From Symbiotaphrina buchneri (taxonomy: Eukaryota; Ascomycota; Symbiotaphrinales; Symbiotaphrinaceae): DNA of 64,000 nt. Under the pieces are notes generated by a model. That model was given only the letters and a program-made list of their open reading frames with translations. It had not been told where the DNA came from and did not search any database. Location: contig BCIG01000005.1 in assembly GCA_001599915.1 (NCBI GenBank), positions 1-64,000 on the forward strand, given 5' to 3'. Made by a program: the position numbers and the translations under genes. This document shows, piece by piece, positions 777-45,300 of this stretch (position 1 is its first letter; every line of letters begins with the position of its first letter).

Positions 777-3700
777 TCAGTATCCTTCCCAGCCCTTCGT
801 TTCCCGCATGTTTCTGTACCATTCCTGTACATAAGGCAATCCTACATGGGGACCGTACGGCTCTGTCTCCCACTGTGGTCGCGGCGGGGGAAGCCCAGTC
901 GCAGCTGTATAAGTGGCGGACAGCTCAGCGAGAGACCCGCCTCGATTGCAACCCTTTAGCTGTTGGGTCATCGATTTGCTGCGGGCGGCTGCCATCTCAG
1001 TACGAAGCTTGAGAGTATCGTCGTGAGCCACTTTGAAGTCCTGCCCGGTTAATACCACTCCGTAATTGGCTGCCGCGCCTTCCAGGGTTACCAGGCGTCG
1101 AGCGACATCTGTCGCCACGGCTTCAGGCGGGCGAGTCAGAGGATCGCCAATGCCTCCACCTCCCCATGTTACCCATTCGAGGACATCCCCTTTCTCAACA
1201 CGCGTGTGGTCCGACTTTGACCCAAGGTATATGCGAGGCGGTTTGGTGGCGTCGCGGCTGTATTGGTACAAGACTTTGCGAGATCGTGACCCTGGAAAAC
1301 CCCCATCACAACCCCAGGCCATGGTAAATGCGCGGTCATCGTGCAGGTTGATATCTCCTGCACATAAGAACCGGTACAGAGTCCTTTGGGCGTTTCCGCC
1401 TCGGTAGAATCCAGGGCCGCCACTGTCGGCCAAAGCTTCATTGACGTCAATCTGGAGGGGGTAGTAAAGTTCGATCGTCTCGATCGGTATTGACTTGATG
1501 GAAGGAAGCAGACAGTGACAGTCGGGCTATATATATCAAGAACGTGGTTGGTCAGTTGGTATCCCCGAATGGGGAGAAGAACACATACACCATCACCTGC
1601 GGGTCGAGCAGGAACACCACCAAAGCCGATCTGGTACAGGAGGAAGAATTCACCAGATGGTTTGAATCCGGAATAGAAGATATGAGGCGAGTCGGAAAAT
1701 CCGGCGGCGGCTCTATGCTCTGGCATTTGCTGACCCAATAATGCCTGGATCACGTCGAACACCCGTCCGAGTAAATGCGTCCGGCAACTCAAAGCTGCAG
1801 GATGGACCGGATTTAAGATGGAGCCTTTCGGGATGTCCACTTCTATGAGTTCGTTGGCTCCCCCGTTGACCAGCGTATGCGGATCCGTTATTGCCAACAG
1901 ATAATACCTTGTCGGCCATTAGTCAGCACAATGGCGGTTGCGGCCAAGCAATGTGTGTCACTCACACAATGTACATCTTGAACATTTGGAGGGAGAGGAG
2001 GTAATTGATAGAGTATTGGCTCTGCGGCGAGGTCCCATCCCAGTCAAAGTATAGTTTCCCATTTCGCTTTTTCATAGTGCATTTGATCGCATAGGGGCCG
2101 ACACCATGCCCGTCATCATCAATGAAGTCCATGAATTCAGCCGGCTCATCGGAGATGACAGTATCGATAATCTGTGATACTGCGGTTTTGTTCCTCTGCA
2201 GGAGCACCTCTGCAGCCGCTTTATAGACTCTACACATCACAGTTAGCGGGACTTGGTGACATCATCAGTTTGCTCGACATACTCCAGACCGTAGCGGCCG
2301 CACAGCTCCTGGACTCTTGATGCCGCAGTGTTACATGACGCCAAAAGTGCAAAACAATCGGCTCTGAACCAGTCAGCGGCTCTGGAATTCCGCGAAAGAA
2401 CTCTGATTAAATCCTGGTTGAGAACCCCTTTGGCATATAGTTTGACGACCGGGATCTGGAGGCCATCTTCAAATATGGTCCTGGCATCAATCGACAAACT
2501 CCCGGGCGTACTACCTTGAACATCACTTCTGAACCAGTCAGCGGCTCTGGAATTCCGCGAAAGAACTCTGATTAAATCCTGGTTGAGAACCCCTTTGGCA
2601 TATAGTTTGACGACCGGGATCTGGAGGCCATCTTCAAATATGGTCCTGGCATCAATCGACAAACTCCCGGGCGTACTACCTTGAACATCACTTCTGAACC
2701 AGTCAGCGGCTCTGGAATTCCGCGAAAGAACTCTGATTAAATCCTGGTTGAGAACCCCTTTGGCATATAGTTTGACGACCGGGATCTGGAGGCCATCTTC
2801 AAATATGGTCCTGGCATCAATCGACAAACTCCCGGGCGTACTACCTTGAACATCACTTCTGATGGTTAGATCAGGCAGACAGGATGATGGTTCTTGGGAC
2901 CTACGTGAAGTGACCAAAGTTGGCTGCCCAACCAACCAAATCTCCCTCGAAGAATATCGGAACAAGGAGAATAACATCGTTCAGGTGAGAAACCGCGCCT
3001 TCCATCTCATAAGCATCGTTCGTTATAAAAACATCACCTTCCTCTATAGAACCATTCCACACTTTGAGGAAGTCGGGGATGAAGCTGCCAAATTGTCCGA
3101 CAAGCATCTGGCCTTCGGCAGTTGTGACAACATTGAACTCATCCTGGAAAGGGGAGTCAGCACGTTGATTGTGTTTCCTGGGGGTTACAGACCTGTTGCT
3201 CTCGAATCCCAGGTGACATGGACGCTCGAAGTACAAGCGTATCCATCTCCCGTCGAATGGATGCCAGAGCCGATGAAATGAGCGTTGGGATAATAGAGTC
3301 TTCCGACACATATTTTCTTGCAGCATCAGGCGCCAAGGACAGCTCACGCTTAGTCGATTGGGTTTGGCGTCTCGGATTGATAACGATGTTGCGTTTGTTG
3401 TCGATTTTTGCGACATATCCTGGAAGGACCAGCGTATTCGAGTCCATTTCATTGATGACACAGGGTCCATACAGGACGGTCCCTGGTGTGCTTATGCCAT
3501 TACGGTCCCAAAGGATGGCCTCAACCTTCTCTTGCTTGTAGTAGATCTGAATTCTCGAGATAATAGCTGATTGGGTAGGGGCTATCTCTTCATCAGCGCC
3601 GTCAAACACAGAGCTTCCGACTTCAGCAGAGTCATCCGACACGATTACTCGAAGCCTCATAAGCTCGATCTGGTACTGAGCCATGACGAACGTAAAGCGA

Positions 3701-5638
3701 CGATGATGTTCAACTTCGAAACTCTTTCGCAGTGCTGCCTGGACCTCTTCAACGCTGTCATTCAGACTGCTTTGATCAACGGTCACTGTCATCTCTTGGG
3801 ATTGCCCCTGGTACCGTAAATCCACTTGATAAACGGTTTTCACCTTCTCCAATATGTGACCCGAACTGGAACCATTGACTTTTGAGCGGCAGACATTCTC
3901 AATCTCCAAGAAGCGTGCCCGAAAGTCTTCCAGGTCAAGTGCAGACAGTGGTTTGATGTAAGAAGACGTCTTCTCATGACTCAGCTTCGTGACAACATCG
4001 CCTTGGGCACACAAAATGCCTGGCGAAGGAGGGATGATAACGGGCCATGACCCGAGCAGCTCACCGACAGCATTTGCATGCAGGGGACCAGCACCACCAA
4101 AAACAACAAGTGCGAAGTCTTTGGGATCGTATCCTTGCTCGACCGACACGACTCGGACGGCGCCGTACATGGTCTCATTGACGAGATCAATTATACCCTG
4201 CGCACAGTCCTCCACGCTTATGCCCATTTCTGTTGCCAGATTTGAGATGGCAGCCACCGCAGCGTTGACGTCTAGCACGAAGTCTCCTCCAAGTAATCTT
4301 GGAGGCAGATACCCAAGCACTAGATTAGCATCAGTCACAGTTGGCTCACGGCCGCCTTTTCTGTAGCAAGCAGGCCCAGGATTTGCACCGGCGCTTTCAG
4401 GTCCCACACGCAGGTGCTTGCTCAAAGAACTGTATTTTGCAATCGAGCCACCACCAGCTCCCACCGTGTGAACATCGATAGATGGTGCTTTCACACTCAG
4501 TGTCCCAACTACTGTCTCTCTGCGAACAGCCGGTGATGCAGCAGGGATCAAAGCGCAATCTGAGGAAGTCCCACCCACGTCCAAGGTGATGACGTTCGGG
4601 TAATCATTTCCGATCTCATGACATACGCCTCGGACGCCACCTGCCGGTCCTGACCTTTCCAGCGGTTCAAGTCAGTAGTGTTCGTTCCAAGACCTTGTAG
4701 CATCTGAAAACATAAGACTCACATGAGGAGGTTGACTGGCAATTCCTGAGCAACCTCAAGGCTGGTCAACCCGCCATCGCTCTTCAGTATTCGGATCATA
4801 TCGCTATCATCCTTCAAGACGGTACTCAGATGACCGATGTATCGCTTGATGGTGGGCTTGACAAGAGAATTTGCTGCAGTGGTGACGGTTCGTTCGTATT
4901 CTCCAACTTCCGGAAGGACTTCACTCGAGAGAACGATCTCTGCATCCGGAAACTCTTCGCGGGCGATGCGCGCGGCTTCGGCCTCGTGGACATTGTTGCT
5001 GAAGGAGTTGATAAGGCTGATGCAGATGACATCTGGACATTGTGTCTTTAGCTGTGTCAGGTTCCGCCGCAGTCCGTCAACATCCAGGGGTTTGACGATG
5101 CTGCCATCGATAGCAACACGTTCGGGAGCATCCACGGTCAGCTCCAGGGGGATTACTGGTTTTGGGACTTCCCACGTGAGCCAAGCTCCGAGGCTTCCAG
5201 GAATCTGAGAGCGTCTAAGATTCAAGACATCTTTGTTGCCCGCTGTCACAATCAGCGCGGCCTTGCTTCCTTTCCCTTCGAGGATGGCATTTGTTGCTAT
5301 AACTCAACTCAGATCAGATCAAAGAGATACGGCGTATTGGAAACAAACCAACTGTGGTCCCATGGTGAATATGGTCGAACCTGCCAGACCATCCGTGACT
5401 GCTTTCCAGAGTCTTTCTCGCTTTGTCGATAGCCTGCTTGACGCCCACGCTCTGATCAGGCGCAGTCGATAGCGCCTTGGCGCGTACCAGTTCGCCAGAG
5501 GGAGTGATGACACACACGTCTGTAAACGTGCCCTATGACTGTCAACTCCATAGGGCACCCGGGCTGATATTTGAGCATACTTACTCCGACGTCGACACCT
5601 AGCCTGTAACCGGAAGACGGCTGAGATGAAGCACCCAT
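777..5638 (-). CDS. Fused HyuA-HyuB hydantoinase/5-oxoprolinase family protein with internal triplication
   Basis: Enzymes of this family hydrolyse cyclic imides such as 5-oxoproline or (N-methyl)hydantoins, usually with ATP, in the cytosol. The start at 5638 gives an N-terminal HyuA half: once an intron is removed after GVDVG the text reads GVDVGGTFTDVCVI, the ATP-binding signature, followed by HHGTTV and, near 4590, LDVGGTSSDCAL. The HyuB half begins after a 48-nt intron (3145-3192) that restores SPGIREQQDEFNVV, and continues with FITNDAYEMEGAVSHLNDV, GGANELIEVDIPKGS and WGGGGIGDPLTR to the stop at 777. Further introns lie near 5530-5570, 5300-5356, 4655-4722, 2859-2904 and 2230-2275. A 55-residue segment of HyuB is present three times in tandem (see repeat entry), so the protein is about 110 residues longer than normal unless splicing removes copies. 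The exact substrate cannot be told. It is divergent from the amino-acid permease at 6196, in line with nitrogen scavenging. Confidence 0.88.
2364..2858 (-). repeat. Perfect 165-bp tandem triplication inside the HyuB domain
   Basis: Three head-to-tail copies (2858-2694, 2693-2529, 2528-2364 in transcript order) look identical base for base. Each encodes 55 residues in frame, starting SDVQGSTPGSLS and ending RNSRAADWFR. Ordinary HyuB proteins have this segment once. The outer borders share the microhomology TCAGA, and each copy begins exactly at the 3' splice site of the preceding intron (2859-2904). Confidence 0.95.
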
Positions 5639-42386: not shown

Positions 42387-45300
42387 CTAGATATCATTGC
42401 CCCTAGCCTCACATGCCCTCAGCAACAGAAATGACAGGGTCACAGCCAGAAATATCAGTCTGATGGTGCTGATTTTCGGATTTCGCAACTCGGAAATACG
42501 CTTCAGATCGCGTTCAGCTTGGAGTCGGTCAGGGTGATCCTCTCGGAGCGTAACACTTCGCACTGCTACGACGTGTCTCAGCAGTGAAATTGACTTGTCA
42601 AGCTCTCCAGCTGTTCCGTATGCACAGGCGAGCACGTGCTCTGATATTAGCCGACTACGGTGATCCTCCCGAAACACAGTCTTCTGTACTGTTACAACGT
42701 GCTCCAGCAGTATAATCGACCTGTCAATCCGTCCATCTCTCAGGTACGCAATGGCAAGCTCATGTTCTGATGCCAGCCGACGAGGGTGGTCCTCTTGAAA
42801 CACAGTCTTCTTTACTGCCACAACATTCTCCAGGAGTATAATTGACCTGTCAATCTGGCCGTCCGTATGATAAGCTATTGCCAGCGCATGATATTCTACA
42901 AGTGTTATCTCTTCGATTTTAACAACATGCTCAAGTAGTGCAATTGCCTTGTCTGTTTGGCCATCGCTCCTATAAACGACTGCCAATGCATGTTGTGATG
43001 TCAGGTGGCCAGGATGATCTTTTGCAAGTGTTATCTTTCTGATTCTAACAACATGTTCAAGTAATACAATTCTTTGCCTATTTGGCCATTGTCCAAATAG
43101 GCATCTGCCAGTGAATGTTCTGATTCCAGGCGGTCAGGATGATCTTCTGCAAGTGTGTTCTTTTCTATTTCAACAATATGCTCAAGTAGTGAAACTACCT
43201 TGCTTATTTGACCATCTGCCATATAAGCCACTGCCAGTTGATTTTGTGATGTCAGGCGGTCAGGATGATCTTCTGCGAGTGTGTTCTTTTCTATTTCAAC
43301 AATATGCTCAAGTAGTGCAACTGCCTTGCTTATTTGACCATCTGCTATAAGAGCTCTTGCCAGGGTATCTTGTGATTCCAGTAAAGCAGGATAATCTTCT
43401 GACAGCTGAGCCTTCCCCCACGCAAGCCCAATTTCCGAACATGAGATAGCTTCTTTCGTTCGTCCATCTTGCTGTAGGCATAGTGAAACGCGGCGGTACA
43501 AGTAATATCTGTCCTTGATGTCGAGCTCTTCGGGTCTTTTCAAGAGTTTGAGAGCATGCGGCAGATACTGCCTCCATAACGTACGGTTCTCCCATTCAGA
43601 AGATGGAAACACGACTTCAACACGACGGATAGCTTCCATTGTTGTCTTTGCTACAAGTCCATGCTTCTGAACCCATATACGTGTTGCCAAATGCACAAGG
43701 TTGTGCATATCGAATGTTTCGCGGTCTGATCGTCTTGTAAGGAAAGCATACCCACATAGCGTACCGATCGCGTGTATCATTTGCTCCCGGGACCCAGCTT
43801 CTGGCAGCAGAGATCGAGGAATTGCTTTAGGCTCAATACAAGATATGAAGCGTAGTAGGCCGGCGGCCATGGAGTCACGCTTGCGTATCTGATCGAAGGA
43901 CACGAGCCAGGTAGTCGCAACAGCATTCCGTGTGTCTTTGTACCGGGTGGTGTCCTCGAACTCTCTGTTCATCAGGCTGACCATATCATCCTCTGTACCT
44001 CGCAGTAGTTCGAGGTATTCTGCGACCAAAACTTCATTTCGATTCAGGTAGGCCGCGGCCTGTGAGATTGCGAGTGGTAAATAGGTGAGTTCGTCAAGCA
44101 GTTCAGACACCAGTGCCTCCTCTTGAAGTTGGTCCTTCCCGAGCAGCGACTGTTCTAAGAACTTCGTAGCCTCCTCCGCGTCCATTTGCTTCAATTCAAT
44201 GACATCGGTCTTCGCAACCGACAATGCCACCTCTTTGGAACGTGTCGTAAACATGAACAGGCCCTTCTCGCTTTTTGGAAGATACTGGTCCAAGCCTCCT
44301 CGATTGTCACTGGGCCCGTGTAGAAGCTCGTTGTCGTCTGCATTGTCAATAACCAGAAACCATGGCCCAGCCTTCTCTGGGCTCAGGTATCGACAAACAG
44401 CGTCCTTTGGATCTTCATTCCCAGCACCTGTGTGGATGGCCAGCTGCCGTGCTATCTCAGCGTATGCCTGTTCGAAGCTCTCATGATTCAAGGCGGGCAC
44501 CCAAAAATGGAATAGTTCGGCTTATTCTCCTTGACCCAGTAAGCAAACTGCAGAGCAATCTGGGTCTTCCCCATTCCCCCTAGCCCGAAAAGGGCGAGTT
44601 TCTGACACTGTTGCTCCAGAAACAGCTTCTGCTTCAGTTCATCTAGTATCGCAGTCCGTCCGACAAAGCGATCATTCTTCTGAAATGGAATGCAATATCG
44701 GGGCCGGGTCCGGTCTACACTAGCATTAATCTCTGTTATCGAACATGTGGATTATACTAACTATCGGTAACTTGGCTTGTGCCATACGTGCCAGACATCA
44801 TGCTCTGGCCTTTGATTCCAGCTTCATCAAGAGCCCCACTGCGTACGAATTGCTTCAGTACTCCCAGAATTGCCCTATATTGCGGATCCTCAATACTACT
44901 GCATCTCGCCATCTGCATATGATTGGCGTCAATGCTCTCGACTGTCTCAACTTCTCGAGGTAGATCCAGCTTTGAAGAGAAATCATCTACTACCTGCGCC
45001 CGTCGTCGGCAGATCAGTACAGAAGACTAGTAAGAGGAATACATCAAAGATATTTCGCTCCCTACCTTGCTATGCAGCCCCTTCATACCCGATATACCGC
45101 GTGCCTCCTGGAAAGAATGGATCTTGATTCCTCCAGTACTCACTATGCTCTTGAATTGCTCATGGATATTGTCCAGAACTTCGTTGTTCACTTCTAAGCT
45201 CCGGAGAACATTACTGTTCGAGTCTTGCAAAGCCAGGAGAGCAAAATTTGACGCGATCGTGCCCCATCCCGCGAGACCACTTCCCCGGTGCGGTGTCCCG

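Follow-up and report, generated by a model that had tools for sequence, protein, structure and literature searches.

The fused HyuA-HyuB gene near the beginning of the window (the whole 64,000-nucleotide stretch of DNA analysed here) carries in its HyuB region three tandem copies of a 165-bp exon segment that are 100% identical, as found by repeat detection and string identity. The units, of 55 codons each on the minus strand, are in frame, are spaced at 165/165, and span 2363-2862 including a 5-bp overlap; an exact in-frame triplication had been claimed for this place in the initial annotation, and it is borne out by the sequence. We infer that exon 6 recently underwent a tandem, in-frame duplication of its initial 165 bp, probably in a microhomology-mediated event, and that a further copy was then added by unequal exchange or slippage. 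One border would have lain in the 3' splice site of intron 5 (TCAG/A) and the other in the exon sequence TTCAGA, and every junction would have inherited the CAG and the AAG that follows it, with CTGAC contributed by the luck of the exon sequence. The acceptor of copy 1 would most likely be used in most transcripts, since the native intron of 46/49 nt is untouched and this acceptor is the nearest to the donor, and a minor fraction may be joined to copy 2 or 3. The main protein would be longer by 110 residues, located at the subunit interface. As a whole, this explanation by recent microhomology-mediated duplication with splicing mainly at the copy-1 acceptor is, in our judgement, rather probable. 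The features are listed in Table 1.

Table 1. Positions of the gene, the repeat units and their splice signals in the window, and of HyuB matches near contig ends.
Feature	Position	Strand	Remarks
Fused HyuA-HyuB gene (ATP-dependent hydantoinase/oxoprolinase/caprolactamase-like)	777..5638	-	ATG at 5638; 8 predicted introns; spliced open frame
Intron 5 (predicted)	2859..2904	-	Native branch-like CTAAC (A at 2866); CAG acceptor 2859; AAG acceptor 2856
Copy 1 of 165-bp unit	2694..2858	-	Ends in GCTGACTGGTTCAG, the acceptor context for copy 2 (CAG 2694, AAG 2691)
Copy 2 of 165-bp unit	2529..2693	-	End is the acceptor context for copy 3 (CAG 2529, AAG 2526)
Copy 3 of 165-bp unit	2364..2528	-	Continuous with the remaining exon; ends in GCTGACTGGTTCAG, then AGCC, the zero-copy acceptor context (2364)
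TCAGA, likely microhomology	2363..2367 (exon-side border); also 2528-2532, 2693-2697, 2858-2862 (intron end)	-	Read from the sequence
CAAG then GTAGTA in copy 1	2844..2845; same at 2679/2680, 2514/2515	-	AGGT: weak donor, possible acceptor, one unit apart
HyuB places near contig ends	C5:1-3 kb; C5:814-816 kb (of 849 kb); C19:1.7-3.4 kb
HyuB places near contig ends	C21:572-574 kb (of 580.5 kb); C3:891.6-892.0 kb

The host gene

With its three copies, the gene comprises 1473 codons in 9 exons, and the frame is open throughout. The boundaries of the introns (5584-5533, 5348-5297, 4722-4655, 3192-3144, 2904-2859, 2282-2230, 1965-1908, and 1588-1527; 46-68 nt) were predicted from the frame, the consensus, and homology. 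PF02538 (Hydantoinase_B) matches above its curated cut-off on five exon pieces, which together cover profile positions 47-519; positions 1-46 have no separate match on the exons of the gene. Of the HyuA phosphate motifs, the gene has DVGGTFTD and DVGGTSSD, in agreement with the pattern DxGGTxTD / DxGGT. From the metal ligands listed for CapB in the passages of PMC8453981 on which we draw, His99, Asp102, and His124 are kept in the alignment to CapB, and the fourth, Asp41, is kept by paralogue alignment only. On the sequence criteria of Hydantoinase_B domain, phosphate motifs, and the ligands Asp, His, Asp, His, the gene is a member of the HyuA-HyuB group, and its activity is putative. The best NCBIfam models on three of its exon pieces are CapA (292 and 104 bits) and CapB (39.5 bits); on these pieces the scores lie below the equivalog cut-offs of 1000 that define caprolactamase membership. 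A pseudogene is not favoured in view of the open frame over 9 exons, the eight predicted introns of ordinary sequence, and the conserved catalytic motifs. Rfam returned nothing at the gathering threshold within the window.

Copy number in relatives and position in the protein

One unit aligns gap-free to residues 126-180 of CapB (PDB 6yra, chain B), CapAB 6yra being the best match to the unit among solved structures. Residues 129-174 of CapB form the CapB-CapB interface (PMC8453981), and the unit covers this segment directly after the metal ligand His124. By alignment and repeat search, one copy is the norm among the relatives compared, i.e., bacterial loci and own paralogues. The three own-genome paralogues that cover the region, which are distant from the gene (21-39% identical over aligned stretches), hold a single copy in the alignment, and Tandem Repeats Finder detected no array with a unit of at least 60 bp in 80 bacterial HyuB loci, the best 80 of 586, chosen by similarity to a paralogue and not to the triplicated gene. 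A first HyuB scan of a collection of genome contigs confirmed no relative; the second scan used the paralogue alignment. Bacterial CapAB (PDB 6yra, PMC8453981) has His99, Asp102, and His124 in common with the gene and, as described there, consists of two separate subunits with one copy of the segment, whereas the fungal gene is fused and holds three.

It is quite possible, if short of probable, that the surplus is tolerated at the level of the protein, the long protein folding with the additional units looped out at the HyuB-HyuB interface or being inactive in a dispensable gene. The location of the unit over the interface argues for such tolerance, as do seven further places with HyuB matches in the genome (two of them partial), and the adjoining metal ligand His124 argues against it. 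Tolerance of this kind is compatible with the duplication and copy-1 splicing that we prefer.

The array and its possible instability

The perfect identity of the copies is a matter of recency or homogenisation, either one. A search of 2300-3000 against the own genome matched no further place, the best candidates alone being scored, and a 30-mer from the unit had no exact match in viral contigs. In 264 kb (the window plus C1:200001-400000), Tandem Repeats Finder reported one other array with a unit of at least 60 bp, a 126-bp unit repeated 3.7 times with 80% likeness at 42888-43349, within minus-strand frames 42387-44521 that we take to resemble a TPR-type repeat protein. Tandem repeats are generally unstable, and unequal exchange or slippage could vary the number of copies among strains or cells, by which a one-copy allele would be regained without any splicing. 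The perfect identity of the 165-bp repeats points in this direction, as does the discussion of repeat instability in PMC10809524; against it, the copy number is known from one genome. We hold such reversibility in the DNA to be a serious contender that falls somewhat short of probable, and it is compatible with the preferred origin and splicing.

Conceivably, the array is an artefact of assembly and the actual number of copies is one, or at any rate not three. Assemblers tend to collapse rather than expand such repeats, and the ordinary microhomology at the border and the preserved frame and phase likewise speak for a real array. The closeness of the array to the start of contig C5 (2.4 kb), the division of the assembly into 82 contigs, and the 220 N found in a sampled 200 kb of contig C1 are in keeping with an artefact, which on balance appears unlikely. 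A back-splicing or RNA-circle origin was rejected, as the 3' border (TTCAG/AGCC) is not a donor.

Anatomy of intron 5 and the junctions

The native intron has TCTAACCATCAG at its end (minus strand) and AAGTGATG after it, and the junctions between copies read GCTGACTGGTTCAG then AAGTGATG, i.e., a branch-like CTGAC and a CAG acceptor. The border TCAGA, likely the microhomology of the duplication, belongs at one end to the 3' splice site of intron 5 and at the other to the exon; both this border and the junction sequences read as the initial annotation had given them. The acceptor contexts of copies 2 and 3 are identical, and that of copy 1 differs only upstream of the shared TCAGA. The donor at 2904 is CAC then GTAGGT on the minus strand, and retention of intron 5 would lead to an immediate TAG and a product of 838 residues. 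From this donor, the acceptor contexts at 2859, 2694, 2529, and 2364 define introns of 46, 211, 376, and 541 nt, all equal to 1 mod 3 and hence in one phase, with predicted proteins of 1473, 1418, 1363, and 1308 residues (3, 2, 1, and 0 copies, respectively). The gene thus holds candidate tandem 3' splice sites for one donor that share the phase, with a branch-like site and an AG at each. The original proposal that a choice of acceptors could yield three, two, or one copy from the same donor in the same phase holds to this extent; it had left out the zero-copy acceptor at 2364.

The CAG recurs at every junction because the border is shared. This does not apply to the CTGAC, and the frequency of such motifs ahead of a YAG was determined in the long open frames of the 264 kb: a CTRAC whose branch A stands 6-18 nt upstream of the G was present at 34 of 2540 YAGs (1.3%) and at 23 of 1955 CAGs (1.2%). 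The other CTRAC-YAG pairs that the scan found in the gene (branch A at 3157, 2866, and 2243) are all intronic; the weaker CTGAT before a YAG occurs three times in its exons (A at 5252, 4331, and 3593). The junction, a site chosen post hoc, resembles a genuine acceptor more closely than random exon sequence does. Presumably, the CTGAC was present in the exon before the duplication.

CAG or AAG as the native acceptor

Each copy opens with the pair CAGAAG (2859/2856, 2694/2691, and 2529/2526), and homologues bear on which half is used. CapB has the segment GHLTD and the three paralogues have HHAD, HHRD, and HHLD; the same spacing is seen in 70 of the 80 bacterial HyuB loci (69 by a first pattern and L062 by a wider one), the 10 loci in which the G-H-x-x-D motif is absent even with the wider pattern being counted as misses. 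Splicing at CAG would give GHFTSD, one residue over, and splicing at AAG would give GHFTD. The AAG is 10 nt from the branch A of CTAAC, the commonest distance in short candidate introns (8/26). The CAG is 7 nt from it, which leaves 3 nt between motif and acceptor, and the minimum spacing used for A. nidulans is 4 nt (PMC6616335). A CTGAT 12 nt upstream of CAG 2859 could serve as the branch motif instead, and the CAG may therefore still act as an acceptor. As judged from sequence comparison, AAG 2856, 3 nt after the CAG, is probably the main native acceptor.

The initial annotation had let copy 1 start right after the CAG of the intron. The acceptor context is indeed there, but the spacing in homologues suggests that the CAG may be the minor half of CAGAAG. 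As both lie in the same phase, the argument on splicing that had been built on the CAG is unaffected. An annotation that uses the CAG may add one serine, and the homologues favour the AAG. NAGNAG tandem acceptors are a known class of splice sites, and the CAGAAG at the start of each copy resembles them in its shift by one codon (Ser); here, the pair itself is repeated three times by the duplication. TAG at 2841, which one selection of candidate introns had chosen as the acceptor of intron 5 instead of 2859, is not favoured by homology.

Use of the distal acceptors

To reach the later acceptors, introns would have to be 211 or 376 nt long, and those predicted in the gene are 46-68 nt. In the 264 kb, candidate introns bearing CTRAC are in excess at 42-80 nt (26 vs 3.4 in controls; sd 2.5, max 13), and the corresponding figures are 6 vs 2.4 at 81-120 nt, 9 vs 6.9 at 121-200 nt, 12 vs 11.1 at 201-300 nt, 9 vs 10.5 at 301-400 nt, and 14 vs 17.1 at 401-550 nt. 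Above ~120 nt, no clear excess of branch-bearing candidates was found in this small sample, from which a few long introns would escape. The controls were 59 permuted motifs, some of which overlap CTRAC, and this may explain the control maximum of 13; they supersede earlier sets of 55 candidates (many apparently false long introns) and of 27 short ones (47-100 nt). Splice sites of filamentous ascomycetes are described as pairing with their nearest partner, and in A. nidulans the mean intron is 73 nt and introns above 160 nt are rare (PMC6616335). The same source reports use of downstream acceptors in A. niger and N. crassa, which makes leakage plausible. The junction branch GCTGAC, 5 nt before the CAG, fits the fungal branch consensus RYTRAY and the 4-nt minimum better than the native TCTAAC at 3 nt, and one position of the native donor, GTAGGT, does not agree with the donor consensus GTRWGY (PMC6616335), so that the later acceptors are not intrinsically weaker. 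RNA structure joining the donor to a far acceptor was considered and rejected, the fold of 2364-2930 being no better than shuffles (z = 0.51; 67/100 at least as good). We expect the three-copy mRNA to be the main product, with leakage possible, and consider major use of the distal acceptors improbable.

These figures bear on the original suggestion that the gene buffers its own duplication by splicing, in which a substantial share of transcripts would join 2904 to the copy-3 acceptor (2529/2526) and the resulting one-copy mRNA would mask the duplication. The anatomy for it is present, i.e., the donor, the phase, the branch-like site, and the AG: all acceptors lie in one phase, each with CTGAC and CAG/AAG, branch-plus-AG contexts are as rare in exons as the YAG scan indicates, the relatives compared carry one copy, and splicing to a variable number of copies has a precedent in UBC (PMC10809524). 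Extensive use of the later acceptors is the part that is not supported, because the native intron is intact and nearest, the introns of the gene are short, and the RNA fold is ordinary, and because of the length statistics: the introns of 376/379 nt that would be needed fall in a class without excess over controls in 264 kb. The nearest-pair rule in fungi (PMC6616335) is likewise against it. A buffer of this kind is unlikely, and we are equally doubtful of a self-masking duplication in which a real share of mRNA skips to the last copy and the gene still yields a one-copy enzyme.

A further route to fewer copies would be dual-specific splicing as in UBC, with the AGGT of each unit serving as donor and acceptor (2844 to 2680, 2679 to 2515) and exactly 165 nt being taken out in frame. 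Coordinates and phase fit exactly, and 2844 to 2515 would remove 330 nt; the fit has to be read against an expectation of ~0.6 AGGT per 165 bp by chance (165/256). The donor GTAGTA differs from GTRWGY (PMC6616335) at three positions, and CAG and AAG come earlier after the branch site and would cause a frameshift with the AGGT donor. We consider this route very improbable. An enumeration of splice pairs gave many other in-frame pairs with weaker sites.

Comparison with known systems

In human UBC, splicing among the tandem units is described as stochastic and as taking place at AGGT sites, and the authors regard repeat expansions with splice sites as less deleterious since they are removable by splicing (PMC10809524). 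The likeness lies in tandem coding units with splice sites in one phase, by which the copy number of the mRNA may vary without frameshift. Each boundary in UBC is an AGGT that acts as donor and acceptor, and the introns are multiples of the unit (PMC10809524), whereas the present gene has one outside donor, an array of candidate acceptors, and identical copies in a fungus with short introns. In the potato RdRp gene, an intron was gained by tandem duplication over an intron-exon border, as shown by RNA reads (PMC4974935). There too, the duplicated segment reaches the intron-exon boundary and copies acceptor signals; it holds the intron end and the branch site, and a cryptic donor made the new intron, whereas the segment here begins at the CAG itself and takes its branch-like site from the exon. 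The Rogers/Hellsten model, as described in PMC4974935, derives intron gain from duplication of an exon segment bearing AGGT. The unit does hold an AGGT, and in both cases a tandem duplication of an exon segment is able to create splice sites; in contrast to the model, in-frame AGGT excision here would start from a weak donor and meet competition from AGs that come earlier, and the old donor is the stronger option. Our literature search, covering titles and abstracts in part, found no acceptor array from triplication of an exon segment in a fungus.

Where a microhomology falls on a splice site, each junction comes to carry acceptor signals. With three acceptor contexts of the same phase served by a single donor, the gene is a natural test of distance-based choice of the 3' splice site by the fungal spliceosome, and also of the capacity of splicing to conceal a recent duplication of coding sequence. 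If self-masking were true, the gene would represent an intermediate, not yet diverged, on the way from a harmful duplication to a newly gained long intron.

Genome context

PF02538 matches are found in eight places of the own genome, including the triplicated gene. Five of the eight are no more than 40 kb from the end of a contig (Table 1), if C3 ends at telomere repeats (917.6-917.8 kb), and HyuB genes possibly form a subtelomeric family. The matches at C3:891573-891972 (profile 387-519) and C31:168282-168545 (profile 1-86, two stops) are partial and may be gene fragments or genes split by introns. Positions 1-800 of the window are a contig start without telomere repeats and with no obvious gene in the portion read, and G+C is low (0.42-0.45) in the first two 500-base steps of the window.
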